Positions 3,367 through 27,819 of a stretch of 29,633 nucleotides of DNA are shown piece by piece. A model generated the notes under the pieces. That model saw nothing but the letters and a program-made list of their open reading frames with translations. It did not search any database and was not told where the DNA came from. Where the stretch lies: assembly GCA_001275005.1 (NCBI GenBank), contig JWZX01001563.1, positions 1 to 29,633 on the forward strand, written 5' to 3'. How positions within the stretch are numbered: the stretch's first letter is position 1; every line of letters begins with the position of its first letter. Both the position numbers and the translations under genes were made by a program. Source of the stretch: Chrysochromulina tobinii. Lineage: Eukaryota > Haptophyta > Prymnesiales > Chrysochromulinaceae.

Positions 3367-3369
3367 TCG

Positions 3370-6300: not shown

Positions 6301-9300
6301 CTGCCTGCTCTCGCCTCGCCTTCGCGCTCATCCACCTCCGCCTTCGCGCTGACGCCGCTCCAGAGCCTGCGCGAGCGGCGCGAGCGGCGCGAGCGGCATC
6401 AGGCGTGGGCGCTTTGGCGCCGCTCTGCTGCGGCCGCGGCGCAGCTGCAGCGGCTGTGGCGGCGGCAGGACGACAGCTCGCTACAGCGCGCCCTTGCGTC
6501 GTGGCAAGCGCTCACAGACGAAGTGAGTACGCGGCGGGGCGCCACGGGCGCCGTCGTGGGCGCGCGTGAGCGGCGCCAGCAGCTGAGCGTTTTCTTGTGC
6601 TGGAAGCTGCAGGTCAGGTGCACAACGTCAAAGGTGATCGTGCAGCTGCGGCAGCGGCAGTGGCGTCTGCGCGAGCAGCTCATGCGCTGGCGCCGAGAGA
6701 CGGCGCGCCGCGCGGTAGCCTTCGCCATCCGGCGGCGCCATGCGTGGCGCGAAAAGGCGCGCGTGGTGCATCGATGGCGTGCATACGTGAGCCTCCGGCA
6801 CGCGTCGCACGAGTTGCATGCTCAGGCTGCAGGGCCTCTCGCCCGCAAGCACCGTGCGGCCACCGCGGGCGCGCTTGCCGAATGGCGATACGAAGTCACA
6901 CTCGCCGCCGCGAGCTGCGTGGTGCGTCATCGGTCCCGGTGGCGCCTGTATGACCGGCTGCTCCGCCAATGGCGCACGCACCTCGCACTCACGAAGGCAG
7001 CCGACGCGGTGCAGGAGCGAGCATATGCCGCCTGTGAGCGGCGGCTCTCCGCCGTGACCAATGACGCGCTTCATCAGTGGGCCGATCTGGCACGGGCGGA
7101 CCGGGCCGTTATCGTCGTGGAGCAGCAGCGCCGAGGTCGGCGCGCACTCGGCGTGTGGGCGGCCAACGGCGCCATGGTGAGCGCGGAGACGGACCAGCAC
7201 GAGGGGCTGCTGGCGCTCGCGGAGGCGCATCTCAGGCTCTCGAGGCTGCGAGCGTGGGCTGCGATTGCGCGCCATCAGGCGGCGCGGCGCGAGGAGGCCG
7301 CCGCCAGAGCTTCCCCCGCTGAGGCCGCCCTGGCCGCCATGGCCGAGGTACTCGCCGCCGCTCACGTTGCCGCTGGCTTGGGTCTCGACACGTCCGCGCC
7401 CAGCACAGCGCCTGTCACGCCCGCGCCCGCCACAGTGCCCGCCACACCCGCGCCAAGCACGCCCGCCGCCGCCGCGCCCTTCTCGGCGGGCATCTCTCCG
7501 GCCTTCTACCCTGCCTCTGGCGCGTTCAGCGACGCTCCCACTTTCGAGGCGAGCGCGTTCGGCGAGGCTTCCTTTGGGCAGGCCACTCCCACCTTCGACG
7601 AGGGCCCCGCCTTTGATGATGCCGCGCCATGTGGAGAAGCCTTCGCCTTTGGGCAGGCCTCGGCCTTTGGCGAGCCCCCAGCTTTTGACGAGTCTGCGGC
7701 TTTTGGACAAGCCTTCGCCTTCGACGATGCGGCTCCCTTTGATGAAGCCGCCGCCGCTGCCGCCTTAGACGCTGCTGACGCCTTTGGCGCCGCTGCCAGC
7801 AGCTTTAGCACAATCGCGAGCTGGGCGGCGAGGGGCGACGCGGCCGCCTTCGAGCCGGTGCCGCCCAAACAGCCGCCTCCGCAGCCATCATCGCCGCTGC
7901 CGCCGCCATCCCGCGAGAAGGAGGCCCTGGAAGTGGCACGCGGAGCGATGCTCGAGCTTGAAGCGGTACGAAGGGACTACACGGCTGCACAAGCGCTCGC
8001 GGCGCGGGAGCTCGAGGGGCGTGAGGAGGCGAATGCGAGGGCGAGTGCGAGGGCGCTTGTGGAACAGCGAGAGCGGTTACGAGCCGAGTTCGAGCAAGAG
8101 AAGGAGGCAGCTCTTGCGACGGTGCGGCGCCAGAGTGAGGCGATGCAATCACCGGCACCGGTGGCGCTGGCGCAGGAGGCAGCGAAGGGGGAAGGGGGAA
8201 GGGGGAGGGCAACGGAGGCGCTGGCGCCGGAGGCAGCGAGGCAGCAGGATCGCCCTTTCGCGACGGACGCGCCAGAGGTGGCGATCCTTCTCAAGTCCAC
8301 TCCAGAGGTGGTGAGTCTCCAGGAGACGGTGGAAGAGGCGGCAGACACGCGAGGCGGAAGGGCCCTTGGGGGTGACGACTCCTTTGATGACGAATCCTCC
8401 GATGATGGACTGAGTACCTTTGCGGAGCTGCGGATGGGCTGGCGTCGCTGGGCGGCAGCGACGAAAGCCGCGCGTGCACAAGTCGTCGTCGTGTTGTTGA
8501 GACGGCGATGCGCGCTCGCAGCGGCGCTGCGGCACTGGGCGGTGGTGATGGAAGCAGCCAAGCACCGCCGCCACCTGGTGCTCGGCACGGCGCTTGGCGC
8601 GTGGCGCGAGTGGACGGCGGCCGAGGTGCACCGTGGCGTGCTTCGCTCGCTGGCAGCCCGCCACCTGCTGGCGGCGATGACGATGGAGAGAAGGACTGCG
8701 AGACGATCGGCCCTGCGGCGCTGGGGCTGCGTGGTCTCGCTTGCATTGCGACGGCACGCCGCCGCACGCCTGGCGCCGTCGACGCTCAAGCGCCGTGCCG
8801 TACAGCACTGGCGGCGGGAGGCACACGTCTGGGCGGAGTGGCAGCACCTCGCCATGCGCTGTGATCGCGCCCTTGCTCGTGCTATGCTGCGCCTCTGGCG
8901 TCGCGCGTCAGTGCAATGGCGCAGGGCCACGCTCGTTCTGGTCGCTGTGATGCGCCGATCGGCCCTCGCCAGCGCCGTCCTCGCGATTGGCTGGTGGAGC
9001 GGCTGGTCACGGACCGAGAGCGTCGTGCGCGTGTGGCGTGAGAGGCTCTTGGTGACACGTGCTCGGCGCATGCTTCTCGTCTGGCGAGTGCGCGGCGCCG
9101 AGGAGGATGCCATTGAGGCGACGCTTCGTGCGGGACTCACCTCGGGCAGTCGCGCTGCAAGCCCCGCTGCCTTCCACGTGAGCGCTGCCCTGGGTGACAG
9201 CCCCGTCTTGCTCCTCGGCGCCGGCCCCACCCTTGCCCTCGCCCCGGGCCTCGCCCCCAGCCACGCTGACAGCCTCGGCGATGGCGATGGCCACCGGTGC

Positions 9301-9747
9301 AGTCCGATCAAGGCCGAAGCCCAGCCGCCCCTACCGGCCTCACCCCTGCTAGCGAGCAGCACGCGCGCCAAGAAGGGCGGCGAAACGCTCTCCGAATGGT
9401 TTGAGAAGCATAAGGACAGCTTCGGAGGCGGCGAGGCTGGCGGCAGACGGGGCGAGGGCTTCAGTTGCGAGACGGCGGCGCCACCGGCCGCGGGGACGTT
9501 GGCGGCACGGGCGGCTCCCGTTACGAGCATCGTGTCGGACAGCTCTGGCCAGCTCCGCATCCGTCGCCTTGCCACGTCCCAGCCCACATCGCCTTCCCAG
9601 GCCCACTCCCATGCCTCCTCGCACCGTGTCTCGCGTCCCGCTTCGCGTCCCGCCTCCCGCCCCGCCTCCCCCCCCAAAAAAAAAAGAAGGCGTAGCCCGC
9701 GATGCCGCAGCCTTGGTCGAGGCCATCGGTTTGGTAGTAGGTGGTAA
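3370..9747 (+). CDS. Giant Sfi1-like centrin-binding repeat protein, 3'-truncated chimeric copy
   Basis: Open frame of 2125 residues. Residues 1-2100 are identical to the N-terminal 54 percent of the 3914-residue protein at 15878-27622. After 9670 the frame runs into foreign DNA and adds about 25 residues, beginning PPKKKRRRSPR, before TAA at 9745-9747. It keeps the first three Trp-repeat blocks (about residues 140-925, 1000-1305 and 1685-1910), the FG/FD-rich segment (about 1388-1461) and the coiled coil (about 1513-1591). It lacks the two later repeat blocks and the NDAFGAH arrays. The true start may be Met52 (ATG at 3523), because 3370-3520 looks non-coding. It may be a pseudogene, a new chimeric gene, or an artefact of a false join. 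Confidence 0.7.
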   Translation: MEILFTNVHFSRVRTDSRFHEKRVSAFTLHSQRTFALPAPPLPVVGSGEPSMLRERPSSQAEPSSSRTHALVSLDQFGRSGVTASSSSLITSASMPALLPSARRHLPEDAADALDWRLSVMQQLLLSGSTQLAARQSAAEETVRTILFRWRYRDEFLALQSLKANAKRERLLYGGVLAVLPSRRGRMLEALFTMRGAAAAAPSGTALRSLIARVRSCSLARALEAWQLDAESARVRATGRRAMLARVLSSLLAAARRAAAAQHASLVCAQASSQEALSAWREALPALRAERADRCARREHREHARRRAQQCAWSRFRYEQRVASHSHSPGHSRLAVRVGWSRWRRRWAAGAARVDRYLRLMNMANGTSAARLFARWSARVAARTARDDSSAQAAVMHFVATHRATFAHWRTRVAEWTTREVFFGQAAVVYVRTTHRAAWRHWKQHAWSEYQRRTLRASLETQSRRFLWRRLCRAIGAAAQRRRMRSTAARAQARREWSRLCAALHASGRCARAGRLGAEGAEAARLATLRSAWEGLADAASTHVRADVAFACVRAATLGKALRGAWERLHLYSSAWVQIRLMVVVRGCMHALHRWILSAAARATARQVAQAGAAHARRVRLCVGLGSWCDQHGQRRWHESRQRVAAARVHEASFERHARAALLCWRRHRTSRVHAAVARRHAAAAEAARAVHTWRECMRGAGPRSALAEAAYSAHTRRALLSALLLWRAVVAQRHAAAIVAQNHRSRARAQKMAVIRRWCLVTTLAAAACVVAHRHRWRAEARVMAEWRFNVTWNDAAAALMRRTVVPRAQRLAAALASALEYWATLVMVEHGTYIMRGQRFARRAWVRFCAGSAEVGAERSLYAAACTQHQHLAWHQWRAGSAAHAVRQQQRREQRQRAGQHLASARLRDWRASALWHAHWAEVDRALSSSASGTATPRAILAAGTATPLATTRAAPSALPPSPPLMMWSPAQPAPLPALASPSRSSTSAFALTPLQSLRERRERRERHQAWALWRRSAAAAAQLQRLWRRQDDSSLQRALASWQALTDEVSTRRGATGAVVGARERRQQLSVFLCWKLQVRCTTSKVIVQLRQRQWRLREQLMRWRRETARRAVAFAIRRRHAWREKARVVHRWRAYVSLRHASHELHAQAAGPLARKHRAATAGALAEWRYEVTLAAASCVVRHRSRWRLYDRLLRQWRTHLALTKAADAVQERAYAACERRLSAVTNDALHQWADLARADRAVIVVEQQRRGRRALGVWAANGAMVSAETDQHEGLLALAEAHLRLSRLRAWAAIARHQAARREEAAARASPAEAALAAMAEVLAAAHVAAGLGLDTSAPSTAPVTPAPATVPATPAPSTPAAAAPFSAGISPAFYPASGAFSDAPTFEASAFGEASFGQATPTFDEGPAFDDAAPCGEAFAFGQASAFGEPPAFDESAAFGQAFAFDDAAPFDEAAAAAALDAADAFGAAASSFSTIASWAARGDAAAFEPVPPKQPPPQPSSPLPPPSREKEALEVARGAMLELEAVRRDYTAAQALAARELEGREEANARASARALVEQRERLRAEFEQEKEAALATVRRQSEAMQSPAPVALAQEAAKGEGGRGRATEALAPEAARQQDRPFATDAPEVAILLKSTPEVVSLQETVEEAADTRGGRALGGDDSFDDESSDDGLSTFAELRMGWRRWAAATKAARAQVVVVLLRRRCALAAALRHWAVVMEAAKHRRHLVLGTALGAWREWTAAEVHRGVLRSLAARHLLAAMTMERRTARRSALRRWGCVVSLALRRHAAARLAPSTLKRRAVQHWRREAHVWAEWQHLAMRCDRALARAMLRLWRRASVQWRRATLVLVAVMRRSALASAVLAIGWWSGWSRTESVVRVWRERLLVTRARRMLLVWRVRGAEEDAIEATLRAGLTSGSRAASPAAFHVSAALGDSPVLLLGAGPTLALAPGLAPSHADSLGDGDGHRCSPIKAEAQPPLPASPLLASSTRAKKGGETLSEWFEKHKDSFGGGEAGGRRGEGFSCETAAPPAAGTLAARAAPVTSIVSDSSGQLRIRRLATSQPTSPSQAHSHASSHRVSRPASRPASRPASPPKKKRRRSPRCRSLGRGHRFGSRW
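3406..3417. promoter_or_regulatory. 12-bp perfect palindrome upstream of the Sfi1-like gene (copy 1)
   Basis: GTCCGTACGGAC is self-complementary over 12 bases. It sits in a short stretch of lower GC (about 3370-3520) with T- and A-runs, unlike the coding DNA on either side. That suggests a leader or promoter rather than the first codons of the giant protein. Binding by a dimeric regulator is a guess from symmetry only. Confidence 0.3.
9668..9685. other. Duplication breakpoint: C8-A10 homopolymer junction
   Basis: Eight C (9668-9675) are followed by ten A (9676-9685). The first two or three C belong to the duplicated segment, and everything from 9671 onward is unlike copy 2. The left flank is a C-rich coding repeat (RPAS units). 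The right flank is the interrupted end of a minus-strand coding fragment. A two-part homopolymer exactly at a join is unusual and is typical of either end-joining with added bases or a false assembly join. Confidence 0.85.
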
Positions 9748-14839: not shown

Positions 14840-15874
14840 ATGGCACAGGAGCGGTCAGAGTCCGAGCGAAGTCGCTTGCTGTCCTCAGAGTCACCGCCGC
14901 TTTATGATCCGCAAGCGCGCCCGCTCAAGGTGTTAGTGTGGAACATTCAGTTCGCCGCTGGGACCGCCTGCCACTTCTTTTATGAGGGTGGCAGTCTAGT
15001 GAGCGTACCCAAAGCGGCGACCGTTTTCGACACGCTGGACGTTCTGGCTGAGATCATCGCTGCGCACGATCCAGACGTTGTGCTGCTCCAGGAGGTTGAT
15101 CGCAACTCGCGCCGATCATGGTACATTGACCAGCACGCAGAACTCTGCAAACGCCTCCCACTGTACGTCGCAGCTGCCTCGACGTGGTATTGGCAGGTCC
15201 CATGGGTGCCCACGCCGCTGAGCCTCGGTGGCGAGATGCTCGGCCGTGTTGACGTGCACCTCTCCGTGCTGAGCAAGTATGCGATCTCGAGCGTGCGCCG
15301 TGTGGCCCTACCGGCCATCCGCTCCGACGGCTGCTGCACACGGCTCTTCAACCTGCGGCGGGCAGTACAGCACATCACGCTCGCGACCGCCGACGGCGTT
15401 CCCGTGCACATCCTGCACACGCACCTGTCCGCCTTCACCAAGGGCGACGGGACGGTCGAGGCGCAGGTGGCGACGCTGCGTTCGCTCATAGCCGATGCTG
15501 GTCCTCGATGGATGCTTGCGGGAGACTTCAACGCACTGCCGCCGGGCGTCAAGGCGACCGGACTGACCGGTCAGGCGGCGCTCGAGTACCCAGCGGCGCT
15601 CGACGAGGTGCCTTCGCCAATCGCCCCACTCTTCGACATCGCCATCTCCGCCATCCCACTCACGGACCTCACCGATCCGCATCGGCGAGCCGAGCACTTG
15701 ACATGCAAGTACTTTGGCTGCTCGACGGCCGAGGTCACGCTTGACTATCTCTTCCTCGCACCGGCCGCGTGGGCGGTAGAGCAGGCGCGCGTCGCACGCG
15801 ACGCCCGATGGCCTTCCGACCACGCTCCGATCGTCGCGCGACTGCGTTCAACGCTGCAGCCTCGAGGCTGCTGA
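14840..15874 (+). CDS. Endonuclease/exonuclease/phosphatase (EEP) family hydrolase (copy 2)
   Basis: Sequence-identical to the gene at 2332-3366 and intact, with all EEP motifs retained (Asn of the WNIQ motif, Glu of LLQEVD, GDFN, LDYLF and SDH). The frame closes with TGA at 15872-15874, three bases before the first ATG of the giant Sfi1-like frame. Its 3' UTR must therefore overlap the leader or first codons of that gene, and the two might be read through or share regulation. Substrate is unknown. Confidence 0.9.
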   Translation: MAQERSESERSRLLSSESPPLYDPQARPLKVLVWNIQFAAGTACHFFYEGGSLVSVPKAATVFDTLDVLAEIIAAHDPDVVLLQEVDRNSRRSWYIDQHAELCKRLPLYVAAASTWYWQVPWVPTPLSLGGEMLGRVDVHLSVLSKYAISSVRRVALPAIRSDGCCTRLFNLRRAVQHITLATADGVPVHILHTHLSAFTKGDGTVEAQVATLRSLIADAGPRWMLAGDFNALPPGVKATGLTGQAALEYPAALDEVPSPIAPLFDIAISAIPLTDLTDPHRRAEHLTCKYFGCSTAEVTLDYLFLAPAAWAVEQARVARDARWPSDHAPIVARLRSTLQPRGC

Positions 15875-15877
15875 TCG

Positions 15878-18800
15878 ATGGAGATCCTTTTTACGAATGT
15901 TCATTTTTCGAGGGTCCGTACGGACTCCCGTTTTCACGAAAAAAGAGTCAGCGCGTTCACACTTCACAGCCAGAGGACCTTTGCTCTCCCAGCCCCGCCA
16001 CTACCTGTAGTCGGGAGCGGCGAGCCGTCCATGCTCCGCGAGCGGCCGAGCAGCCAAGCTGAGCCGAGCAGCAGCCGCACCCACGCCCTCGTCTCGCTCG
16101 ACCAGTTCGGCAGATCTGGAGTCACAGCCTCCTCTTCCTCGCTCATCACCTCTGCATCCATGCCAGCGCTGCTGCCTTCTGCGCGTCGCCATCTCCCAGA
16201 GGACGCCGCTGACGCGCTCGACTGGCGGCTCTCGGTGATGCAGCAGCTACTGCTGAGTGGTTCGACACAGCTCGCCGCGCGCCAGTCAGCAGCGGAAGAG
16301 ACGGTGCGAACCATCCTCTTCCGTTGGCGCTACCGCGACGAGTTCCTGGCGCTCCAGTCACTCAAGGCGAACGCAAAGCGCGAGCGGCTGCTGTACGGCG
16401 GTGTGCTCGCGGTCCTGCCGTCTCGGCGCGGCCGCATGCTCGAGGCGCTGTTCACCATGCGAGGCGCCGCCGCCGCCGCGCCATCCGGCACCGCTCTCCG
16501 CAGCCTCATCGCGCGGGTGCGGAGTTGCTCTCTCGCGCGTGCGCTGGAGGCGTGGCAGCTTGACGCAGAGAGCGCACGCGTGCGGGCAACCGGCCGGCGA
16601 GCGATGCTCGCGCGTGTTCTCTCGTCGCTACTCGCCGCCGCGCGCCGCGCCGCCGCCGCGCAGCATGCGTCCCTTGTATGCGCCCAGGCCAGCAGCCAAG
16701 AGGCATTGAGCGCGTGGCGAGAGGCTCTCCCCGCGCTGCGAGCTGAGCGTGCAGATCGGTGCGCGCGGCGGGAGCATCGGGAGCATGCGCGCCGGCGCGC
16801 GCAGCAGTGCGCGTGGTCGCGCTTTCGGTACGAGCAACGCGTCGCCTCGCACTCGCACTCTCCTGGGCACTCGCGCCTGGCGGTCCGTGTTGGCTGGTCG
16901 CGATGGCGGCGGCGGTGGGCGGCGGGCGCAGCCAGGGTGGATCGCTACCTGCGGCTGATGAATATGGCCAACGGTACGAGCGCTGCGCGCCTCTTCGCGC
17001 GCTGGAGCGCCCGGGTGGCCGCTCGCACCGCCCGTGACGACAGCAGTGCCCAGGCAGCCGTGATGCACTTCGTCGCCACGCACCGAGCCACGTTCGCGCA
17101 CTGGCGTACCCGGGTGGCCGAGTGGACCACACGCGAGGTCTTCTTTGGGCAGGCGGCCGTCGTGTACGTGCGGACGACGCATCGGGCAGCGTGGCGGCAC
17201 TGGAAGCAGCATGCATGGAGCGAATACCAGCGGCGCACGCTCAGGGCGTCTCTAGAGACGCAGTCCCGACGCTTCCTTTGGCGTCGCCTCTGCCGTGCCA
17301 TCGGTGCGGCGGCGCAGCGGCGGCGCATGCGTAGCACCGCCGCGCGGGCGCAGGCGCGGCGGGAGTGGTCGAGGCTGTGCGCGGCTCTGCACGCGAGCGG
17401 CCGGTGCGCGCGCGCGGGTCGGCTCGGCGCGGAGGGTGCCGAGGCGGCACGCCTCGCCACACTTCGATCCGCTTGGGAAGGGCTTGCAGACGCGGCCAGC
17501 ACGCATGTGCGTGCGGACGTTGCGTTTGCGTGCGTGCGGGCGGCGACGCTCGGCAAGGCGCTGCGCGGCGCGTGGGAGCGTCTGCACCTGTACAGCAGCG
17601 CATGGGTCCAGATCCGGCTGATGGTAGTGGTGCGTGGCTGCATGCATGCGCTGCACCGCTGGATTCTGAGCGCCGCCGCACGCGCCACCGCGCGGCAGGT
17701 CGCTCAGGCGGGCGCGGCCCACGCGCGACGCGTCCGGCTGTGCGTCGGCCTCGGAAGCTGGTGCGACCAGCACGGGCAGCGCCGGTGGCATGAGAGCCGG
17801 CAGCGGGTGGCGGCTGCTCGGGTGCACGAGGCGAGCTTTGAGCGCCATGCACGCGCCGCGCTCCTTTGCTGGCGCCGCCATCGAACGTCTCGGGTGCACG
17901 CGGCAGTTGCAAGGCGGCACGCAGCGGCTGCCGAGGCGGCGCGTGCCGTGCACACGTGGCGAGAGTGCATGCGCGGCGCTGGCCCTCGCAGTGCGCTGGC
18001 CGAGGCCGCGTACAGCGCCCACACGCGCCGCGCCCTGCTGAGCGCTCTGCTACTCTGGCGCGCTGTCGTGGCGCAGAGGCACGCGGCTGCCATCGTAGCA
18101 CAGAACCATCGTAGCAGGGCGCGCGCTCAGAAGATGGCGGTGATCCGTCGATGGTGCCTTGTCACTACACTCGCGGCGGCGGCGTGTGTCGTGGCACATC
18201 GGCATCGGTGGAGGGCCGAGGCGAGGGTCATGGCCGAGTGGCGATTCAACGTCACCTGGAACGATGCGGCCGCCGCGCTCATGCGACGCACAGTGGTGCC
18301 ACGTGCGCAGCGGCTAGCAGCAGCACTTGCGAGTGCTCTCGAGTATTGGGCTACACTGGTCATGGTGGAGCACGGCACGTACATCATGCGTGGGCAGCGC
18401 TTCGCTCGGCGCGCGTGGGTGCGCTTCTGTGCTGGGAGCGCCGAGGTGGGCGCGGAGCGCTCGCTCTACGCGGCCGCATGCACGCAGCACCAGCACCTGG
18501 CGTGGCATCAGTGGCGTGCGGGCAGCGCTGCACACGCGGTGCGGCAGCAGCAGCGTCGCGAGCAGCGCCAGAGAGCCGGCCAGCACCTCGCTAGCGCCCG
18601 GCTGCGTGACTGGAGGGCGAGCGCACTCTGGCACGCTCACTGGGCCGAAGTGGACAGGGCGCTGAGCTCCTCCGCATCGGGCACTGCGACGCCGCGAGCG
18701 ATCCTTGCGGCGGGCACCGCCACGCCCCTAGCCACTACACGGGCCGCGCCCTCTGCGCTCCCGCCGTCGCCGCCGTTGATGATGTGGTCACCTGCGCAGC

Positions 18801-21800
18801 CGGCGCCGCTGCCTGCTCTCGCCTCGCCTTCGCGCTCATCCACCTCCGCCTTCGCGCTGACGCCGCTCCAGAGCCTGCGCGAGCGGCGCGAGCGGCGCGA
18901 GCGGCATCAGGCGTGGGCGCTTTGGCGCCGCTCTGCTGCGGCCGCGGCGCAGCTGCAGCGGCTGTGGCGGCGGCAGGACGACAGCTCGCTACAGCGCGCC
19001 CTTGCGTCGTGGCAAGCGCTCACAGACGAAGTGAGTACGCGGCGGGGCGCCACGGGCGCCGTCGTGGGCGCGCGTGAGCGGCGCCAGCAGCTGAGCGTTT
19101 TCTTGTGCTGGAAGCTGCAGGTCAGGTGCACAACGTCAAAGGTGATCGTGCAGCTGCGGCAGCGGCAGTGGCGTCTGCGCGAGCAGCTCATGCGCTGGCG
19201 CCGAGAGACGGCGCGCCGCGCGGTAGCCTTCGCCATCCGGCGGCGCCATGCGTGGCGCGAAAAGGCGCGCGTGGTGCATCGATGGCGTGCATACGTGAGC
19301 CTCCGGCACGCGTCGCACGAGTTGCATGCTCAGGCTGCAGGGCCTCTCGCCCGCAAGCACCGTGCGGCCACCGCGGGCGCGCTTGCCGAATGGCGATACG
19401 AAGTCACACTCGCCGCCGCGAGCTGCGTGGTGCGTCATCGGTCCCGGTGGCGCCTGTATGACCGGCTGCTCCGCCAATGGCGCACGCACCTCGCACTCAC
19501 GAAGGCAGCCGACGCGGTGCAGGAGCGAGCATATGCCGCCTGTGAGCGGCGGCTCTCCGCCGTGACCAATGACGCGCTTCATCAGTGGGCCGATCTGGCA
19601 CGGGCGGACCGGGCCGTTATCGTCGTGGAGCAGCAGCGCCGAGGTCGGCGCGCACTCGGCGTGTGGGCGGCCAACGGCGCCATGGTGAGCGCGGAGACGG
19701 ACCAGCACGAGGGGCTGCTGGCGCTCGCGGAGGCGCATCTCAGGCTCTCGAGGCTGCGAGCGTGGGCTGCGATTGCGCGCCATCAGGCGGCGCGGCGCGA
19801 GGAGGCCGCCGCCAGAGCTTCCCCCGCTGAGGCCGCCCTGGCCGCCATGGCCGAGGTACTCGCCGCCGCTCACGTTGCCGCTGGCTTGGGTCTCGACACG
19901 TCCGCGCCCAGCACAGCGCCTGTCACGCCCGCGCCCGCCACAGTGCCCGCCACACCCGCGCCAAGCACGCCCGCCGCCGCCGCGCCCTTCTCGGCGGGCA
20001 TCTCTCCGGCCTTCTACCCTGCCTCTGGCGCGTTCAGCGACGCTCCCACTTTCGAGGCGAGCGCGTTCGGCGAGGCTTCCTTTGGGCAGGCCACTCCCAC
20101 CTTCGACGAGGGCCCCGCCTTTGATGATGCCGCGCCATGTGGAGAAGCCTTCGCCTTTGGGCAGGCCTCGGCCTTTGGCGAGCCCCCAGCTTTTGACGAG
20201 TCTGCGGCTTTTGGACAAGCCTTCGCCTTCGACGATGCGGCTCCCTTTGATGAAGCCGCCGCCGCTGCCGCCTTAGACGCTGCTGACGCCTTTGGCGCCG
20301 CTGCCAGCAGCTTTAGCACAATCGCGAGCTGGGCGGCGAGGGGCGACGCGGCCGCCTTCGAGCCGGTGCCGCCCAAACAGCCGCCTCCGCAGCCATCATC
20401 GCCGCTGCCGCCGCCATCCCGCGAGAAGGAGGCCCTGGAAGTGGCACGCGGAGCGATGCTCGAGCTTGAAGCGGTACGAAGGGACTACACGGCTGCACAA
20501 GCGCTCGCGGCGCGGGAGCTCGAGGGGCGTGAGGAGGCGAATGCGAGGGCGAGTGCGAGGGCGCTTGTGGAACAGCGAGAGCGGTTACGAGCCGAGTTCG
20601 AGCAAGAGAAGGAGGCAGCTCTTGCGACGGTGCGGCGCCAGAGTGAGGCGATGCAATCACCGGCACCGGTGGCGCTGGCGCAGGAGGCAGCGAAGGGGGA
20701 AGGGGGAAGGGGGAGGGCAACGGAGGCGCTGGCGCCGGAGGCAGCGAGGCAGCAGGATCGCCCTTTCGCGACGGACGCGCCAGAGGTGGCGATCCTTCTC
20801 AAGTCCACTCCAGAGGTGGTGAGTCTCCAGGAGACGGTGGAAGAGGCGGCAGACACGCGAGGCGGAAGGGCCCTTGGGGGTGACGACTCCTTTGATGACG
20901 AATCCTCCGATGATGGACTGAGTACCTTTGCGGAGCTGCGGATGGGCTGGCGTCGCTGGGCGGCAGCGACGAAAGCCGCGCGTGCACAAGTCGTCGTCGT
21001 GTTGTTGAGACGGCGATGCGCGCTCGCAGCGGCGCTGCGGCACTGGGCGGTGGTGATGGAAGCAGCCAAGCACCGCCGCCACCTGGTGCTCGGCACGGCG
21101 CTTGGCGCGTGGCGCGAGTGGACGGCGGCCGAGGTGCACCGTGGCGTGCTTCGCTCGCTGGCAGCCCGCCACCTGCTGGCGGCGATGACGATGGAGAGAA
21201 GGACTGCGAGACGATCGGCCCTGCGGCGCTGGGGCTGCGTGGTCTCGCTTGCATTGCGACGGCACGCCGCCGCACGCCTGGCGCCGTCGACGCTCAAGCG
21301 CCGTGCCGTACAGCACTGGCGGCGGGAGGCACACGTCTGGGCGGAGTGGCAGCACCTCGCCATGCGCTGTGATCGCGCCCTTGCTCGTGCTATGCTGCGC
21401 CTCTGGCGTCGCGCGTCAGTGCAATGGCGCAGGGCCACGCTCGTTCTGGTCGCTGTGATGCGCCGATCGGCCCTCGCCAGCGCCGTCCTCGCGATTGGCT
21501 GGTGGAGCGGCTGGTCACGGACCGAGAGCGTCGTGCGCGTGTGGCGTGAGAGGCTCTTGGTGACACGTGCTCGGCGCATGCTTCTCGTCTGGCGAGTGCG
21601 CGGCGCCGAGGAGGATGCCATTGAGGCGACGCTTCGTGCGGGACTCACCTCGGGCAGTCGCGCTGCAAGCCCCGCTGCCTTCCACGTGAGCGCTGCCCTG
21701 GGTGACAGCCCCGTCTTGCTCCTCGGCGCCGGCCCCACCCTTGCCCTCGCCCCGGGCCTCGCCCCCAGCCACGCTGACAGCCTCGGCGATGGCGATGGCC

Positions 21801-24800
21801 ACCGGTGCAGTCCGATCAAGGCCGAAGCCCAGCCGCCCCTACCGGCCTCACCCCTGCTAGCGAGCAGCACGCGCGCCAAGAAGGGCGGCGAAACGCTCTC
21901 CGAATGGTTTGAGAAGCATAAGGACAGCTTCGGAGGCGGCGAGGCTGGCGGCAGACGGGGCGAGGGCTTCAGTTGCGAGACGGCGGCGCCACCGGCCGCG
22001 GGGACGTTGGCGGCACGGGCGGCTCCCGTTACGAGCATCGTGTCGGACAGCTCTGGCCAGCTCCGCATCCGTCGCCTTGCCACGTCCCAGCCCACATCGC
22101 CTTCCCAGGCCCACTCCCATGCCTCCTCGCACCGTGTCTCGCGTCCCGCTTCGCGTCCCGCCTCCCGCCCCGCCTCCCGCCCCGCCTCTCGCCCATCCTC
22201 GCGGCCCGCCTCGCCCATGGCGGGTGCACCGCCGCCACCGATGCCGCCGCATTCCGCGACTGCGGAACACACCACGCCCGTCGCAACCATCAGCAGCGCA
22301 TACACGACCGCCACTGCCGCAACCGTCGTGGGCAGCATGAGTGCCCTCGTGGGCAGCATGAGTGCCCTCGCTGCCCCCGCCGCCGCCACTCCCTACGCAC
22401 CCACACCCCGTGCGACCGCCGCATTCCTCTCCCCTCCGACGCTCGCGACGCAGCTGCTTGCCCACCGACGCGCTGTCCCACGACGCAGCCGAGACGCTCG
22501 CTTGGGTGCGCTGCCTTCGGGAGTCGCGCTCCCTACCGGTATCTCGCCGCTGAGCGCTGCGGCCCTCGGAGGCGTGCGCTTGCTCTTTGGGCGCTGGATG
22601 CGGCGGGCGCACTGGTGGCACCGTACCGAGCTCCTCACGCAGCGCGGCGGGCGGCTGCGGCTGGCGGAGGGGTTTCAATGGCTGCATGCTGGCTGCGTGG
22701 CGGCGCGCTGGGCGACGCGTGCCATCATGGACTGCGCCGCTCTCCGATACAAGACCGCCCTAAGTGACGGCTTCCAATGCTGGGCGCGCATCGCTGCGTA
22801 CATGGCGCGCGGCGACGCCGCTCGTGTTGGGTGCACGCGCGCCGTGTTGGCGCGCACGCATTCACAGCTGCGTCGGTGCTTCACAGTGGTGCTGCACGAG
22901 ACTAATCGGCGCCATGTGAGCCGCGCCCTCAGCGCACACGTCCGGCTGCATCACGGCCGGCGCCGGCTCCGCGAGGCCCTCCACCGCTGGCGTGGCATGC
23001 TGGCCGCACGGGCGGATGCGCGCCGCCGCATCGCGCACGCTGCGGCGCCGCTGTACGCGAGCGGATTCGATACGTCGGCGCAGCGGGCGGATGCGCAGCG
23101 GAGGGCGGCTGCAGCGGTGGAGGCTGATCTGGTCGCTCGGCCGCGGCTTGTGCTCGGCGCCCTCGCCAGCGGAGTCAACGGGCGGCGCGCGCTCGATCGG
23201 TGGCGTGCGGACGCGCGCAAGGCGAAGCAGGCGCGCGAGGCAGAGCGCGACGTGCGCTCACGACGGCGCTCGCGCGGCATCCGGCGCATGCTCGAGGCCG
23301 TTGAGGCGGACGCCTTTGAGGTTCGCATCGAGCGGCTCGGGTTGCATGCGACGCAGCGTGCCCCACTCCGCCACTGGCGGCTGCACACCTCGCGATGCGC
23401 TGACGCGCGTGCGGCCGACGCGGCGGCCGCCATGCACCGCACGCACGTCGTGTGGCATGAGTGGCGCCACCGTGCGGCGCAGGTCCTCGCGCTCTCGCAG
23501 ATCACGCTTGCTAGCCGCGCGGCCGCGGCCGCGCACGTCTTCCTGCTGGCGTGGCATCGGTGGCGCCAGACCACACTCATGGGCTTGCAGCGCGATCACG
23601 CCGAGACCGTGGCCGCCGTTCGCTACCTCGAGTTCGTGCGCACGCTCTTCCGCGAGTGCATGCAGCAGACGCTCCAGATGTGGCGAGCCCACGCGGCCGA
23701 GTACATTAACTACGAGCTGATGGCACGGGTTGCGGTCGATCGCCTCTCCAAGCGGCGCGCGTGCGAGGGGCTGCTCGGGATGCGCGCGCATGTGCGCGCG
23801 CGCCGCCTGCGCCGTGCCGAGCGCATCGAGCTCAAGCTGCTCGTCCGGCGCCATCGGCTGATGACGCGATGGCGCGAGTGGGCGGGCGTTGCCGCCGTGT
23901 TGGCTACCAACGAGCGCGCGCACCGCCTCCGCCTCATGCGCGACGCGGCCTCTGATGCCCTCCGGCTGCGCGCGGCGACACGTCGCTGGCGGATCGAGGT
24001 GGCGAGCCTCGTCGGCGGACGCTTCCACCGCAGCCTCGCCTCGTATCACGTGCGGCTGCGGCTGCTCTGGCCGCCGCTCTGGCGCTGGCGGGCGTGGAGC
24101 GACGCGCGCGCCACCTCGGTGCACCTATGCGCCCTCGCCCAGCTCGGTGAGCGCGCTGATCGCAAGCGTGCCCTCGCCGCGTGGGCCGCGGCCGTCCGCC
24201 GCGAGCACGGCCTGCGAATGGTCTTTGCGGCCGCGCGCGCCCATTGGCTCCTCGTGCACTCCATCCGCGGCCTGCGACGTTGGCAGACGGTGATCAACTG
24301 CCGCGTGCAACGGCGGCTGTGGCTCGACTGCTCGACGGCCGCGGCGGCCCTCATCGTGTGCCGCCGCCGGCTGCGACGCGCGTGGGCATGCTGGGCCGAA
24401 GCGCGCGACGCACTCCACGTGAGCTCGGCGGCCGTCGCGACAGGGGACACGTACCTCGGCGGTGCGGCGTTCGCATGGTGGCGGCACCGGGCGCGCATGC
24501 AATTACGAGCACTGGGTGCCCAGGCGGTGGCGGAGGAGCACTGGGAACGAAAGGTGCGCCTCGACCGACTGCGTGGCCGAGGGCACGACGCAGGCTTCCT
24601 CCGCTGGCGGCGCAGCCTGCGAGCGGAGCGCGTCTTCCTCCTCACCCTCGGAGGCACGGCCGCCGCCGCCGCCATCGGGCACACAGCACGCCAGCGACCG
24701 CTCTGGAAGTACTGGGCGGCCGTGGCGGCGGCGCGCCGTGATGGGCGCGCGCTCCTAGCCGAGGCGGCGAGATTCGCGCCGCGGTGGGCGCTTCGTCACA

Positions 24801-27622
24801 TGTGGCGCAGCTGGCCGCGCCACCGCGTTCGCGCCGGGGGGCTGGGTGGGCCGTGGGCGTGGGCGGGCTGTGCCGCCGCGCACGCGCGCACGACAGGTCT
24901 GCTAGAAGCGTGGAGCCGCTGGAAGCTTGCGACGCTCCACGTGCCGTATGCGCTCAGCATGCAGGTGGCGAGAGCCCATGAAAGGGTCTCTCGGCTGCGC
25001 CATGGGCTGCTCAGCTGGTGCTCATTTGGCGCCGCCCGCTCACTCGCCGCCACCCAGCGCACGGTGCACGAGCGAGAGCGGCTGGGCGCGTGGTGGCCCC
25101 TCTTCCTCCTCGGGCTCAGTGAGCGACGGACTGACATTGGGCTGCGGGCGGGCGCCGACGCGTTTGCTCGGCGCAGCGCGCGTGCCCGAGGGTTTGACAA
25201 GTGGTTGGCACGCTGCGTGGGCTACGGCGGCGACGATGGGCGTCGCCGCAGGGCGCACGCAGCCGTCGCCGTCGATGCTCTTGCCGACGCGGATTTGGCG
25301 CGGGAGAGCGCGTCTGGCAGCGTCGCGTCCGTGAGCGACTGGGGCCTCGAGTTCGAGCGTGCCTTTAGCGGCACGGTGGCGGCGGCGGCGGCGGCGACGA
25401 CGACCATTGCGGGTCGGAGGGCCTGGTGGAGGTCTGAGGAAGCCGAGTTGCCAAATATGGGCGAGGGCGACGAGTGGCCGGCCAACGACGCCTTTGGTGC
25501 CCACAACGACGCCTTTGGTGCCCACAACGACGCCTTTGGTGCCCACAACGACGCCTTTGGTGCCCACAACGACGCCTTTGGTGCCCATAACGACGCCTTT
25601 GGTGCCCACAACGACGCCTTTGGTGCCCACAACGACGCCTTTGGTGCCCATAACGACGCCTTTGGTGCCCACAACGACGCTTTTGGTGCCCACGGCAGCG
25701 GCACGCTCGCGCTCGTCTCGGCGCCGGAGCCCCGACCATATGAGGCAACCCGCCCGACCGAGTTGCCTCATAGGGGCGCGGCGACCCCTGCGGCCTTGCT
25801 CGAGGCCATGTGGGATGATGCGCAGGTCGCCGTGCTGGAGCAGCAGGGCACCGCGCTTGAGCTCAGTGCCGCCCGCACGCTTGACGCTGTGGCTCGTCTG
25901 AGGCTGAGCGAGGCCAGCTTTCCGACGGCCACGGCGGACGGTGCTTGGGACACGCCCGTTGGTGCCCACAACGACGCCTTTGGTGCCCACAACGACGCCT
26001 TTGGTGCCCACAACGACGCCTTTGGTGCGGACCAATTTGGAGCCGCTTCGCTTCCGATCAACCCTTTTCGCGCCTCCTCCTCGTGTGGCAGCGCCTTCAC
26101 AGGCAGCGACGCCTTTCCATTCACAAGCGCCACCCCGGGCACGTTTGCGCGCGCGACGCCGCTCGCTGCGCTCGCGACGAGGCCCACGCCCCTCGACCCT
26201 TCCCGCCTTTCGACCGCCGCTGCGGCGTGGGTGGCCGCCCAACACGGCGCGGATGCGGCGGGCGGAGCCAGCGCCATCGTGGGCGCTTCTCGCAAGGCCC
26301 CGATGAGCGACGCGACTCTCCGTCACGAATTCGATCGGCTGCTCGCGGCCATCGAGGCGGACGAGGTGCTCGGCACGACGCCTCGCACTGGCTGTGGCAC
26401 GAGCCCCATGGCAAGGGCCTCCCTAGCCGACGATGCTCGGAGTGATGCGCGGAGTGTGGCTTCGTCCGCCGCTGTCACCACGACGGCGCCTCCCACCACG
26501 ACGGCGCCTCTGACGCAACCCGAGCGTCGACGCATGGCATTGCTCCGCACGCCGAGTGCCCCGCGGCTCTCGCGCCCGCTGCTGCGCTGGCGGCGGCGCG
26601 CGGCGGCGTCTCGCCACGTCGCGTCGCTCTTGGCACTTGCTGCCCCAGTGGCCGCTCGGTCGGTCCAGCTCCGCGCGGCGGCGGCCCTCTGGCGCGCGGC
26701 TGCCGCGGGCCGTGCTGCCGACGAGCTCATGCGCACCGCGCTGGCCGCTCACACTGGGCGTACCTGCCGCACGGCGCTGCGCAAGCTGCTCGTGGTGGCG
26801 CGCGCGCCGTGGTGGCGGATCTGGCGCGAGCAGTCGGCGGCGCACGCCCTTGCTGGCCGTTACCGGCGCGCCCACGCCGCGTGGCGCGTGTGGGTCGAGC
26901 TCATCGCGCCCCTCGCGCTCGCAGCGCGTGTGGAGCGCCATGGGCACCGGCGCCGGCGCGTGCGCGCCGCGATGGTCGCGTGGCACTCCAGGTGGGAGGC
27001 CGTGAGATCGATGGCGCATGGCTATCTCGGGCTTCTCTCGCGCGTCGGCCGGCGCGTCGTTCACGATGCGTACGCGCGATGGTGGCTCGTCGGACGGCTT
27101 CGGCAGCGCTCTGCCGCCGTGCGCGCCGTGTCGCGCCGTGCACGGCGTGTCGAGGCTATGCGTGCGTGGCGCGCGCTGGCGGCGCATGGGCAGGCTGCGA
27201 TGGGCCTCGAGCGATGTGCTCTCGACTTTTGGGTGCCGCGGCAGCTCGGGTTGCGCATGATGGCCCTCGAGGCGTGGCGGTGTGCAGGCGTACGCACGCA
27301 CGCCGCGGAGCTCGCTCGCGAGCTCGCCGACGCGAGCGCCGCGCGCAGCCGCGTAGCCGATGGCGTCGCGCGCTGGCGGCGATACGCGGATCGCCGGCAC
27401 GAGGGGGCGGCGGCGCGCAGCCTCGACATCATCATGACGCTCGTGCGCCACTCGACCGAACGCCAGCTGGCGAGCCGGATGGTCGCCTGCTTCGCCCACT
27501 GGCGCGACGCGTGCCTGCTCCACGTGCATCCCGTCGTCAAGCGTCTCATGGCTGCGCGCAAACGGCTCGAGGCGTGCGGCATGCGTCCCCTCGGCGCCGA
27601 CCGGCCGGGCCGAGCCCTGTAG
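15878..27622 (+). CDS. Giant Sfi1-like centrin-binding scaffold protein (3914 residues, full length)
   Basis: A single uninterrupted frame. It has five blocks of Trp-centred helical repeats, at about residues 140-925, 1000-1305, 1685-1910, 2228-3120 and 3566-3905. Typical cores are HWRTRV, AWRHWK, CWRRH and AHWRD. Several neighbouring cores are exactly 33 residues apart, the spacing known for Sfi1, whose repeats each bind one centrin at spindle poles, centrosomes and basal bodies. Linkers are a Pro/Ser segment (932-995), an FG/FD-rich segment (1388-1461), a charged coiled coil (1513-1591), an acidic patch DDSFDDESSDDG (near 1669), RPAS repeats (2087-2111) and two NDAFGAH arrays (3203-3272 and 3365-3385). 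The protein is very rich in Ala, Arg and Trp. The start is unresolved: the maximal frame is given, but Met52 at 16031 is more plausible because the first 150 bases look non-coding. A calcium-responsive fibre or basal-body scaffold is the inferred role. Confidence 0.82.
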   Translation: MEILFTNVHFSRVRTDSRFHEKRVSAFTLHSQRTFALPAPPLPVVGSGEPSMLRERPSSQAEPSSSRTHALVSLDQFGRSGVTASSSSLITSASMPALLPSARRHLPEDAADALDWRLSVMQQLLLSGSTQLAARQSAAEETVRTILFRWRYRDEFLALQSLKANAKRERLLYGGVLAVLPSRRGRMLEALFTMRGAAAAAPSGTALRSLIARVRSCSLARALEAWQLDAESARVRATGRRAMLARVLSSLLAAARRAAAAQHASLVCAQASSQEALSAWREALPALRAERADRCARREHREHARRRAQQCAWSRFRYEQRVASHSHSPGHSRLAVRVGWSRWRRRWAAGAARVDRYLRLMNMANGTSAARLFARWSARVAARTARDDSSAQAAVMHFVATHRATFAHWRTRVAEWTTREVFFGQAAVVYVRTTHRAAWRHWKQHAWSEYQRRTLRASLETQSRRFLWRRLCRAIGAAAQRRRMRSTAARAQARREWSRLCAALHASGRCARAGRLGAEGAEAARLATLRSAWEGLADAASTHVRADVAFACVRAATLGKALRGAWERLHLYSSAWVQIRLMVVVRGCMHALHRWILSAAARATARQVAQAGAAHARRVRLCVGLGSWCDQHGQRRWHESRQRVAAARVHEASFERHARAALLCWRRHRTSRVHAAVARRHAAAAEAARAVHTWRECMRGAGPRSALAEAAYSAHTRRALLSALLLWRAVVAQRHAAAIVAQNHRSRARAQKMAVIRRWCLVTTLAAAACVVAHRHRWRAEARVMAEWRFNVTWNDAAAALMRRTVVPRAQRLAAALASALEYWATLVMVEHGTYIMRGQRFARRAWVRFCAGSAEVGAERSLYAAACTQHQHLAWHQWRAGSAAHAVRQQQRREQRQRAGQHLASARLRDWRASALWHAHWAEVDRALSSSASGTATPRAILAAGTATPLATTRAAPSALPPSPPLMMWSPAQPAPLPALASPSRSSTSAFALTPLQSLRERRERRERHQAWALWRRSAAAAAQLQRLWRRQDDSSLQRALASWQALTDEVSTRRGATGAVVGARERRQQLSVFLCWKLQVRCTTSKVIVQLRQRQWRLREQLMRWRRETARRAVAFAIRRRHAWREKARVVHRWRAYVSLRHASHELHAQAAGPLARKHRAATAGALAEWRYEVTLAAASCVVRHRSRWRLYDRLLRQWRTHLALTKAADAVQERAYAACERRLSAVTNDALHQWADLARADRAVIVVEQQRRGRRALGVWAANGAMVSAETDQHEGLLALAEAHLRLSRLRAWAAIARHQAARREEAAARASPAEAALAAMAEVLAAAHVAAGLGLDTSAPSTAPVTPAPATVPATPAPSTPAAAAPFSAGISPAFYPASGAFSDAPTFEASAFGEASFGQATPTFDEGPAFDDAAPCGEAFAFGQASAFGEPPAFDESAAFGQAFAFDDAAPFDEAAAAAALDAADAFGAAASSFSTIASWAARGDAAAFEPVPPKQPPPQPSSPLPPPSREKEALEVARGAMLELEAVRRDYTAAQALAARELEGREEANARASARALVEQRERLRAEFEQEKEAALATVRRQSEAMQSPAPVALAQEAAKGEGGRGRATEALAPEAARQQDRPFATDAPEVAILLKSTPEVVSLQETVEEAADTRGGRALGGDDSFDDESSDDGLSTFAELRMGWRRWAAATKAARAQVVVVLLRRRCALAAALRHWAVVMEAAKHRRHLVLGTALGAWREWTAAEVHRGVLRSLAARHLLAAMTMERRTARRSALRRWGCVVSLALRRHAAARLAPSTLKRRAVQHWRREAHVWAEWQHLAMRCDRALARAMLRLWRRASVQWRRATLVLVAVMRRSALASAVLAIGWWSGWSRTESVVRVWRERLLVTRARRMLLVWRVRGAEEDAIEATLRAGLTSGSRAASPAAFHVSAALGDSPVLLLGAGPTLALAPGLAPSHADSLGDGDGHRCSPIKAEAQPPLPASPLLASSTRAKKGGETLSEWFEKHKDSFGGGEAGGRRGEGFSCETAAPPAAGTLAARAAPVTSIVSDSSGQLRIRRLATSQPTSPSQAHSHASSHRVSRPASRPASRPASRPASRPSSRPASPMAGAPPPPMPPHSATAEHTTPVATISSAYTTATAATVVGSMSALVGSMSALAAPAAATPYAPTPRATAAFLSPPTLATQLLAHRRAVPRRSRDARLGALPSGVALPTGISPLSAAALGGVRLLFGRWMRRAHWWHRTELLTQRGGRLRLAEGFQWLHAGCVAARWATRAIMDCAALRYKTALSDGFQCWARIAAYMARGDAARVGCTRAVLARTHSQLRRCFTVVLHETNRRHVSRALSAHVRLHHGRRRLREALHRWRGMLAARADARRRIAHAAAPLYASGFDTSAQRADAQRRAAAAVEADLVARPRLVLGALASGVNGRRALDRWRADARKAKQAREAERDVRSRRRSRGIRRMLEAVEADAFEVRIERLGLHATQRAPLRHWRLHTSRCADARAADAAAAMHRTHVVWHEWRHRAAQVLALSQITLASRAAAAAHVFLLAWHRWRQTTLMGLQRDHAETVAAVRYLEFVRTLFRECMQQTLQMWRAHAAEYINYELMARVAVDRLSKRRACEGLLGMRAHVRARRLRRAERIELKLLVRRHRLMTRWREWAGVAAVLATNERAHRLRLMRDAASDALRLRAATRRWRIEVASLVGGRFHRSLASYHVRLRLLWPPLWRWRAWSDARATSVHLCALAQLGERADRKRALAAWAAAVRREHGLRMVFAAARAHWLLVHSIRGLRRWQTVINCRVQRRLWLDCSTAAAALIVCRRRLRRAWACWAEARDALHVSSAAVATGDTYLGGAAFAWWRHRARMQLRALGAQAVAEEHWERKVRLDRLRGRGHDAGFLRWRRSLRAERVFLLTLGGTAAAAAIGHTARQRPLWKYWAAVAAARRDGRALLAEAARFAPRWALRHMWRSWPRHRVRAGGLGGPWAWAGCAAAHARTTGLLEAWSRWKLATLHVPYALSMQVARAHERVSRLRHGLLSWCSFGAARSLAATQRTVHERERLGAWWPLFLLGLSERRTDIGLRAGADAFARRSARARGFDKWLARCVGYGGDDGRRRRAHAAVAVDALADADLARESASGSVASVSDWGLEFERAFSGTVAAAAAATTTIAGRRAWWRSEEAELPNMGEGDEWPANDAFGAHNDAFGAHNDAFGAHNDAFGAHNDAFGAHNDAFGAHNDAFGAHNDAFGAHNDAFGAHNDAFGAHGSGTLALVSAPEPRPYEATRPTELPHRGAATPAALLEAMWDDAQVAVLEQQGTALELSAARTLDAVARLRLSEASFPTATADGAWDTPVGAHNDAFGAHNDAFGAHNDAFGADQFGAASLPINPFRASSSCGSAFTGSDAFPFTSATPGTFARATPLAALATRPTPLDPSRLSTAAAAWVAAQHGADAAGGASAIVGASRKAPMSDATLRHEFDRLLAAIEADEVLGTTPRTGCGTSPMARASLADDARSDARSVASSAAVTTTAPPTTTAPLTQPERRRMALLRTPSAPRLSRPLLRWRRRAAASRHVASLLALAAPVAARSVQLRAAAALWRAAAAGRAADELMRTALAAHTGRTCRTALRKLLVVARAPWWRIWREQSAAHALAGRYRRAHAAWRVWVELIAPLALAARVERHGHRRRRVRAAMVAWHSRWEAVRSMAHGYLGLLSRVGRRVVHDAYARWWLVGRLRQRSAAVRAVSRRARRVEAMRAWRALAAHGQAAMGLERCALDFWVPRQLGLRMMALEAWRCAGVRTHAAELARELADASAARSRVADGVARWRRYADRRHEGAAARSLDIIMTLVRHSTERQLASRMVACFAHWRDACLLHVHPVVKRLMAARKRLEACGMRPLGADRPGRAL
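15914..15925. promoter_or_regulatory. 12-bp perfect palindrome upstream of the Sfi1-like gene (copy 2)
   Basis: GTCCGTACGGAC, the same site as 3406-3417. It supports the reading that 15878-16030 is leader or promoter DNA and that translation begins at Met52 (16031). Confidence 0.3.
20036..20262 (+). repeat. FG/FD-rich low-complexity coding segment (second instance at 7528-7754)
   Basis: About residues 1388-1461 of the Sfi1-like protein contain short degenerate units such as SAFGEASFGQ, PTFDEGPAFDD, FAFGQASAFG and QAFAFDDAAPFDE. Phe is followed by Gly or Asp at near-regular intervals. Unlike the NDAFGAH arrays the DNA units are diverged, so this is an older repeat. The local DAFGA wording is shared with the later arrays. 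Confidence 0.7.
22137..22210 (+). repeat. 12-bp coding repeat (RPAS units) at the duplication edge
   Basis: Units close to CGTCCCGCCTCC / CGCCCCGCCTCC encode about six tandem Arg-Pro-Ala-Ser tetrapeptides (residues about 2087-2111). Copy 1 diverges inside this array at 9671 (equivalent to 22179), so the C-rich repeat marks the breakpoint. Confidence 0.8.
22328..22369 (+). repeat. 21-bp tandem duplication in the Sfi1-like gene
   Basis: GTGGGCAGCATGAGTGCCCTC occurs twice in direct succession (22328-22348 and 22349-22369), encoding VGSMSAL twice in a disordered linker. Its length equals one NDAFGAH unit and it is in frame, so it is an independent recent slippage event. Confidence 0.85.
25484..25693 (+). 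repeat. 21-bp minisatellite array 1: ten NDAFGAH units
   Basis: Ten perfect in-frame heptapeptides (residues 3203-3272) are encoded by ten 21-bp units. The units differ only at a few silent positions, for example CAT for CAC and GCT for GCC. There are no spacers. The protein repeat is likely disordered or a short linear motif array lying between Sfi1 repeat blocks. Confidence 0.95.
25961..26032 (+). repeat. 21-bp minisatellite array 2: three NDAFGAH-type units
   Basis: GAH followed by NDAFGAH, NDAFGAH and NDAFGAD (units from 25970), 268 bases beyond array 1 and with essentially the same DNA unit. Near-identity across the unique gap points to recent copying or ongoing homogenisation between the arrays. 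Confidence 0.93.
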
Positions 27623-27626
27623 ACTG

Positions 27627-27766: not shown

Positions 27767-27819
27767 AATGATATCTGACAGGGAGACTGTCTTTTGATGT
27801 TTTTATTCCACTTTTGGAA

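Follow-up and report, generated by a model that had tools for sequence, protein, structure and literature searches.

The forward strand of the 29,633-nt window analysed here (contig C654 of the haptophyte Chrysochromulina tobinii; all coordinates refer to this window) carries an open frame at 15878..27622 whose predicted product, P0001, is probably a giant centrin scaffold of the Sfi1 type. In the arrangement that we propose from its sequence, five long helical blocks would each bear a row of predicted centrin-type docking sites, in which a Trp core is combined with a bulky hydrophobic residue one turn ahead of it and often with an Arg or Lys behind. As these sites would mostly lie 8, 9 or 10 turns apart, they should come to sit near one face of the helix, along which bound centrins could contact one another in the manner of the Cdc31/Sfi1 structure that has been published. 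Being strongly basic, the helix should be a good partner for acidic centrins, and flexible joints would link the blocks. Centrin is the partner that we infer for these sites, and together with calcium the bound centrins may set the length or the stiffness of the array. P0001 might then act as an anchor, or form a fibre, at basal bodies or at flagellar or haptonemal roots rather than elsewhere: such a site is suggested because characterised Sfi1-type proteins work there, a calcium-driven actuator by analogy with ciliates, and the haptonema because of its rapid coiling, which is described as lacking a known mechanism (PMC6398456).

Block architecture and helical phasing of P0001

With 3914 residues, P0001 is the longest Trp-repeat frame seen in the genome, for which the searches covered 53.15 Mb on 2253 contigs. 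Its repeat blocks, the boundaries of which were drawn by hand from the Trp spacing data, and three of the joints are listed below; a loose site is a Trp with a hydrophobic residue at position -3, and loose sites are counted as distinct when more than 13 residues apart.

15878..27622, +: P0001, giant Trp-repeat, Sfi1-like protein; 3914 codons open, ~430 kDa, pI ~11.6
16175..18682, +: repeat block 1, residues 100-935; 17 distinct loose sites
18875..19837, +: repeat block 2, residues 1000-1320; 10 distinct loose sites
19838..20929, +: joint between blocks 2 and 3, residues 1321-1684; Ala/Pro-rich with DAFGEA-type motifs and an acidic stretch
20930..21622, +: repeat block 3, residues 1685-1915; 8 distinct loose sites
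21623..22549, +: joint between blocks 3 and 4, residues 1916-2224; Ser/Pro-rich, (SRPA)n
22550..25252, +: repeat block 4, residues 2225-3125; 21 distinct loose sites
25253..26569, +: joint between blocks 4 and 5, residues 3126-3564; NDAFGAH heptad arrays
26570..27619, +: repeat block 5, residues 3565-3914; 10 distinct loose sites; differs by 1.1% from the related protein P0003

The five blocks contain 127 of the 137 Trp residues of P0001 and are poor in Pro, with 30 of the 152 Pro residues falling within these 2639 of 3914 residues. The low-complexity joints between blocks, which had been described in an earlier note on this DNA, were confirmed as Ala/Pro/Ser-rich segments. 21-bp tandem arrays encoding NDAFGAH are found at 25483-25693 (10.0 copies) and 25959-26028 (3.3 copies), and the heptad occurs 12 times in P0001. 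The true start of the protein may be Met52 at 16031, because the ATG at 15878 sits 3 bases past an upstream stop on the same strand and residues 1-99 are less G+C-rich.

Distances between Trp residues exceed those in local shuffles at 3, 29, 33, 36, 62, 65, 91 and 94 residues (z 3.5 to 7.7), and 43 of the 79 loose sites are followed by another one 28-37 residues downstream, compared with 3.9 ± 2.2 in local shuffles (n = 500). The earlier description of Trp cores in five long Sfi1-like blocks thus stands with regard to both blocks and repeats, but not with regard to a spacing of simply 33 residues, as the spacings are mostly 29, 33 or 36. The top period in the pair distances of loose sites is 3.60 residues with a power of 37.4: the null at 3.6 reached a maximum of 9.3 over 1000 jitters, and 99% of the jittered nulls stayed below 9.2 at each period tested. 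When all Trp residues were used instead of the loose sites, a period of 3.25 was strongest and 3.65 came second. From the period of 3.60 residues it follows that the sites are mostly 8, 9 or 10 α-helix turns apart, and we read this as evidence that the stretches between sites are helical and change in length by whole turns.

Comparison with the Sfi1 repeat

The Sfi1 repeat has been described as Ax7LLx3F/Lx2WK/R, with a periodicity of 33 residues and 21 repeats in the yeast protein (PMC5112337). Around the unselected in-block Trp residues of P0001, position -3 is hydrophobic in 75 of 127 cases (L 35, W 18, F 9; p 5e-12), position +1 is K/R in 56 of 127 (p 2e-10) and position -7 is weakly hydrophobic (50/127, p 0.011). 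The motif [FLW]xxW[KR] occurs 31 times, with 3.8 ± 1.9 occurrences expected and a maximum of 11 among the shuffles (n = 500). A profile made from 64 hand-picked sites of P0001 itself, and hence partly circular, found 56 domains of at least 0 bits in the protein compared with 1.4 in shuffles. Profiles built from one half of the protein and applied to the other gave 15 domains of at least 0 bits vs 0.98 and 11 vs 1.24; the whole-sequence scores of these held-out profiles were unremarkable. When 444 repeats taken from 13 of the remaining frames of the genome were made into a profile, it matched P0001 in 24 domains, compared with 1.14 in shuffles.

P0001 contains 70 distinct loose sites, with 66 in the blocks (17+10+8+21+10) and 4 outside them, and a fair statement of the number of putative docking sites would be about 55 to 70, with a floor of 31 set by the strict motif. 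The 60-80 centrin sites estimated in the earlier note are in keeping with the loose count (66-70), but not with the profile count of 56 or the strict count of 31. That the number lies above the ~20 of yeast Sfi1, as was also claimed, was borne out by 31 strict or 66 loose in-block sites vs 21 repeats (PMC5112337). A matrix made from the in-block Trp residues of P0001 also favoured the four published SFI1 peptides (sum p 0.0004), three of them at p <= 0.025 with yeast R19 at p 0.29; two centrin-target peptides of reverse orientation were not favoured. The pooled matrix from 14 other frames of the genome gave a sum p of 0.0014, with one of the four peptides at p < 0.05.

A genome search with PF08457, the Pfam model of Sfi1, returned one place at E <= 1, on contig C2049, at 14.2 bits (cut-off 22). 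The C2049 frame has 1373 residues and repeats like those of P0001; PF08457 was not listed in the hmmscan of this frame.

Several results weigh against the assignment of P0001 as an Sfi1-type scaffold. Position -8 (34/127) and Ala at -16 (x1.2) are without clear enrichment. In Pfam, no family matched P0001 at E <= 1, PF08457 included; a match to the Sfi1 profile had been set as the test in the earlier note, and the outcome goes against the claim as it was written. The sequence search of the PDB gave no relevant match to P0001, with 3 of 4 hits lying on the NDAFGAH stretch. A matrix from the C2049 frame showed no significant preference for the SFI1 peptides (sum p 0.24), and a search with C2049 matched 17 contigs with C654 not among them, so that P0001 would be a distant member; these two C2049 results have lowered our confidence in the scaffold very slightly. 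Lastly, AlphaFold2 (AF2) models of residues 618-917 and 352-456, both computed without an alignment, are nearly all helix, with mean predicted local distance difference test (pLDDT) values of 48.8 and 48.4 and several broken helices. Owing to the low pLDDT and the breaks, a single long P0001 helix cannot be claimed, and a fold search with a low-confidence AF2 model was uninformative.

We do not judge the missing PF08457 match to be fatal, because a genome with many frames of clear repeats gave one sub-threshold PF08457 place, in another gene, and because the Plasmodium protein PfSlp was named Sfi1-like without sequence homology (PMC10180636). Judging by the searches, this class of putative scaffolds appears to escape the Pfam Sfi1 model, and surveys relying on the model would therefore overlook them. 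We would file P0001 with the motif-defined Sfi1-repeat proteins and not as an Sfi1 orthologue, because it lacks a PF08457 match and a PDB match and the first half of the motif is poorly kept.

Some further database matches were set aside. A histidine kinase was the fourth of the four PDB hits of P0001 (E 0.19) and was rejected, and hepsin, matched in the PDB by a profile of 30 repeats at E 2.5, was judged to be a chance hit; this profile used 30 of the 64 picked sites, and the leading M in some of its rows stands for a GTG or TTG codon. Pfam matches on the blocks and on locus L009 (e.g. IL2RB_N1, DUF7822 and Ku_PK_bind; E 0.007 to 0.56) were likewise attributed to chance, and a search of NCBIfam gave nothing useful.

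Conservation, copies and further Trp-repeat frames

A search with the full-length P0001 protein gave none of 1828 scored candidates at E <= 0.001, and with block 4 as query P0003 was the sole match at E <= 1 (7983 scored). P0003 (ENA, 1447 residues), which was compared at the protein level, aligns to residues 2451-3914 of P0001 with 95.6% identity and has the same last residue. All 59 aligned Trp residues and all 23 K/R residues at +1 are kept, and 2 of the 32 hydrophobic -3 residues are altered (L3009, before W3012, to Gln and V3152 to Met). Differences amount to 2.8% (19/675) and 1.1% (4/350) in the blocks and to 5.5% (23/421) in the joint, and the gaps, of 7, 7 and 4 residues, lie in the joint only: P0003 is without seven residues in each NDAFGAH array and contains the exact heptad 7 times compared with 12 in P0001. 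Retention of Trp and K/R, together with blocks that diverge less than the joint, is what a translated repeat protein under constraint would show.

Bases 1-9670 of the window are identical to bases 12509-22178 with zero mismatch; extended to 1-9675 and 12509-22183, the copy shows one mismatch beside the joint. The copied segment runs from contig base 1 into a C8A10 tract, beyond which the sequences are unlike, and it creates a second frame:

3370..9747, +: second, truncated P0001 copy; 2125 residues, ends just past the copied segment

A genome search with bases 9676-22183 detected no near-identical copy beyond this contig, the best match being 74% over 0.7 kb. The 9670-bp copy is probably an assembly artefact that has created a false truncated gene copy; a very recent duplication could instead have given rise to it. 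That the P0001 frame itself arose through misassembly, or stands open by chance in G+C-rich DNA, we regard as extremely improbable. The identical copy at the contig start is suspicious in this respect and long antisense frames are present, but the separate record P0003 keeps frame, end and Trp positions across 1464 residues, which refutes such an origin for residues 2451-3914. In addition, the copied segment stops at residue 2100, ahead of the stretch matched by P0003, and in a small control no frame passed the Trp spacing test among the 7 controls or among 9 further frames at Trp-repeat loci.

P0001 is not the only frame of this kind. Of 15 further contigs examined, 12 carry 14 frames that pass the spacing test, and including C2049 and P0001 there are 16 Trp-repeat frames on 14 contigs with 485 loose sites. 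This figure is not a gene count, since six frames end at the end of a contig or of the retrieved sequence and adjacent frames may belong to one gene as its exons. Three of the frames are listed here.

C2198:3-10874, -: second giant Trp-repeat frame (L043, L044); 3624 residues, 103 loose sites, 84 distinct; open at the contig end
C1903 531-5771 and 5720-7870, -: Trp-repeat frames of L045; an EF-hand pair in one (PF13499, 1.5e-10) and a filamin repeat in its neighbour (PF00630, 3.1e-14)

An EF-hand pair in the same frame as an Sfi1-like scaffold would be unusual. WD40 repeats occur within the Trp-repeat frames L051 (C1829) and L047 (C717), which have 54 and 10 loose sites outside WD40, respectively. 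Pooling the 684 Trp residues of 14 frames, we found Ala at -16 enriched x1.7, Leu at -12 x2.7, Leu at -7 x2.6 and W and F at -3 x5 and x6; Leu at -8 stood at x0.9 and Arg at +1 at merely x1.4. With regard to its first half, the Sfi1 motif is matched better by the pooled frames than by P0001. Across all 16 frames [FLW]xxW[KR] occurs 112 times vs 27.8 expected, with C1513, C1078, C1757 and C676 near chance. Two further database proteins, P0005 (1531 residues) and P0006 (1510 residues), carry Trp repeats with spacings mostly of 29 and 32-33 residues; they resemble P0001 in the type of repeat and were retrieved via C2049, not via P0001. Unlike in P0001, [FLW]xxW[KR] is not clearly above chance in P0005 (5 vs 2.9), and although the P0005 matrix favoured the SFI1 peptides (sum p 0.025), the AtRAD4 control was favoured too (0.012).

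The genome also encodes centrins, which we counted from an EF-hand search that scored 150 of 1706 candidates and from which 28 loci were examined, so that the number is a lower bound. There are at least seven centrin loci (L002, L004-L008 and L018). L002 is of the centrin-2/caltractin type (best PDB match caltractin, 1.7e-85); L004, L005, L006, L007 and L008 represent a second type with an acidic tail at five dispersed loci, which are 94-96% alike across a coding part of ~490 to 600 bp, with the flanks of the 3.2-kb loci unmatched; and the third type, L018, is split. L001 is a calmodulin-like gene. At L016 (C1219) lies a centrin-like frame of 400 residues with extra EF hands after the centrin part.

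Possible functions and known centrin scaffolds

A Trp-rich helical rod with no EF-hand partner, such as a bare structural rod, would account for the helical phasing, which by itself fits any amphipathic rod, and for the lack of a Pfam match and of a relevant PDB match for P0001. Such a rod would have no need of K/R at +1 or of L/W/F at -3, and the Trp residues are kept 59/59 in P0003: we consider this explanation improbable. Somewhat less probable still is that the repeats bind calmodulin or other EF-hand proteins and not centrin. Calmodulin can bind basic amphipathic helices with bulky anchors, and the calmodulin-like gene at L001 would supply a partner, but P0001 contains no strict IQ motif and one loose one vs 0.72 by chance, and the -3/0/+1 pattern and its orientation fit the published SFI1 centrin peptides.

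Two other proposals concern the role of P0001. It could be a housekeeping factor of centrosome or basal-body duplication, a longer counterpart of yeast and human Sfi1, a role to which we give appreciable weight without favouring it. The analogy is provided by the Sfi1-type proteins of yeast, human, Toxoplasma and Plasmodium, which act at centrosomes or their equivalents (PMC5112337, PMC9406199, PMC10180636). However, with 16 such frames present, the Sfi1 counterpart could be one other than P0001: positions -7 and -16 are less pronounced in P0001 than in the pooled other frames, and the sole sub-threshold PF08457 place (14.2 bits) is C2049 and not P0001. Alternatively, P0001, its relatives and the centrins may form a contractile or twist-generating fibre in flagellar roots or in the haptonema; this calcium actuator, a narrower form of the centrin scaffold and compatible with it, seems rather unlikely. 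The giant size and the dozens of sites recall the contractile scaffolds of ciliates, and 16 frames with 485 loose sites and at least seven centrin loci echo the diversification of centrins in Paramecium (PMC5483020), yet these loci are few vs the 50 genes of P. tetraurelia (PMC5483020). In the case of the haptonema, coiling is described as independent of motors and its mechanism as unknown, with calcium-binding microtubule-associated proteins as proposed players (PMC6398456). In the same source, the only centrin known is a small dot where the haptonematal microtubules end distally, and coiling is ascribed to microtubule conformation (PMC6398456); a tip location and microtubule-based coiling speak against a centrin scaffold along the length of the haptonema. 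More doubtful again is a wider proposal: that giant centrin scaffolds evolved independently in a haptophyte into a large system, comprising the 16 Trp-repeat frames alongside the dispersed loci of the second centrin type, and that this system provides the haptonema or its root with the missing actuator, calcium-driven and motor-independent.

CenBP1 of Paramecium, from work of Gogendeau in 2007, is said to measure ~460 kDa with ~89 repeats. The ciliate scaffolds, i.e. the centrin-binding protein of the Paramecium infraciliary lattice and the myoneme proteins of Spirostomum and others, are like P0001 in being giant, in carrying dozens or more of centrin-type sites and in occurring with several centrin genes (PMC12661445, PMC5483020). 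P0001 differs in its haptophyte lineage, and the likeness is one of size, site number and gene complement. As giant Sfi1-type scaffolds with hundreds of binding sites have been reported in protist myonemes (PMC12661445), the earlier view of the multi-block design as unusual was overstated. Compared with yeast and human Sfi1, P0001 shares rows of Trp-centred repeats of ~33-residue periodicity with F/L at -3 and K/R at +1 (PMC5112337; peptides in PMC8622359, Table 2), whereas it has no PF08457 match, does not keep Ala at -16 and Leu at -8, is spaced at 29/33/36 residues and is divided into five blocks with joints. The Toxoplasma protein TgSFI1, divergent and likewise recognised by its motif, has 32 sites with F 12, L 11 and W 9 at the -3 position (PMC9406199), a use of F/L/W that P0001 shares, and PfSlp, of 407 kDa, was named via [FLW]XXW[KR], came down with centrin and is without sequence homology (PMC10180636). 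In contrast to P0001, these two are centrosomal proteins of parasites, and no multigene expansion is mentioned in the accessible parts of the two papers (PMC9406199, PMC10180636).

A literature search, with most subscription journals outside its reach, found no report of giant Sfi1-like proteins in haptophytes among the parts of the sources that were accessible. For ciliates, a role as ultrafast calcium actuators is under discussion for giant scaffolds of the Sfi1 type (PMC12661445), and a haptophyte with a set of giant scaffolds would show that such scaffolds are not specific to ciliates. The Trp-repeat frames would also be candidate genes for the coiling of the haptonema, the mechanism of which is described as unknown (PMC6398456).

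Among the other contents of the genome, which is that of a photosynthetic organism, antenna proteins gave 51 matches at E <= 1e-15, one of them on C1323, a contig that also carries a Trp-repeat frame. The best PDB chains for the antenna protein L059 were 9jj8 (318.7 bits), 8z11 (299.4) and 9uh3 (270.5), with the next at 180.7; 9JJ8 and 9UEN are photosystem I structures of E. huxleyi and 8Z11 is from I. galbana (PMC12716418, PMC13219633). L059 is thus far closer to photosystem I chains of these haptophytes than to others, in keeping with a haptophyte host. The antenna protein L061 had its best match with the polyprotein chains of 9vfj (168.1 bits) and lends no support to a haptophyte affinity. 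On candidate viral contigs, 13 stretches fit a pattern and none was confirmed.

Within the window, P0001 is preceded by a TM7S3/TM198-like protein at 11831-13153 (+), a bacterial-type translation initiation factor IF-3 at 13725-14624 (-), from which a phage search obtained no placement, and a protein of the endonuclease/exonuclease/phosphatase family at 14840-15874 (+). Past the P0001 stop, at 27623-28300, the DNA turns suddenly AT-rich and contains the doubled motif CACTCAGTTTGTAATCAGGGTATGAGGAAG.

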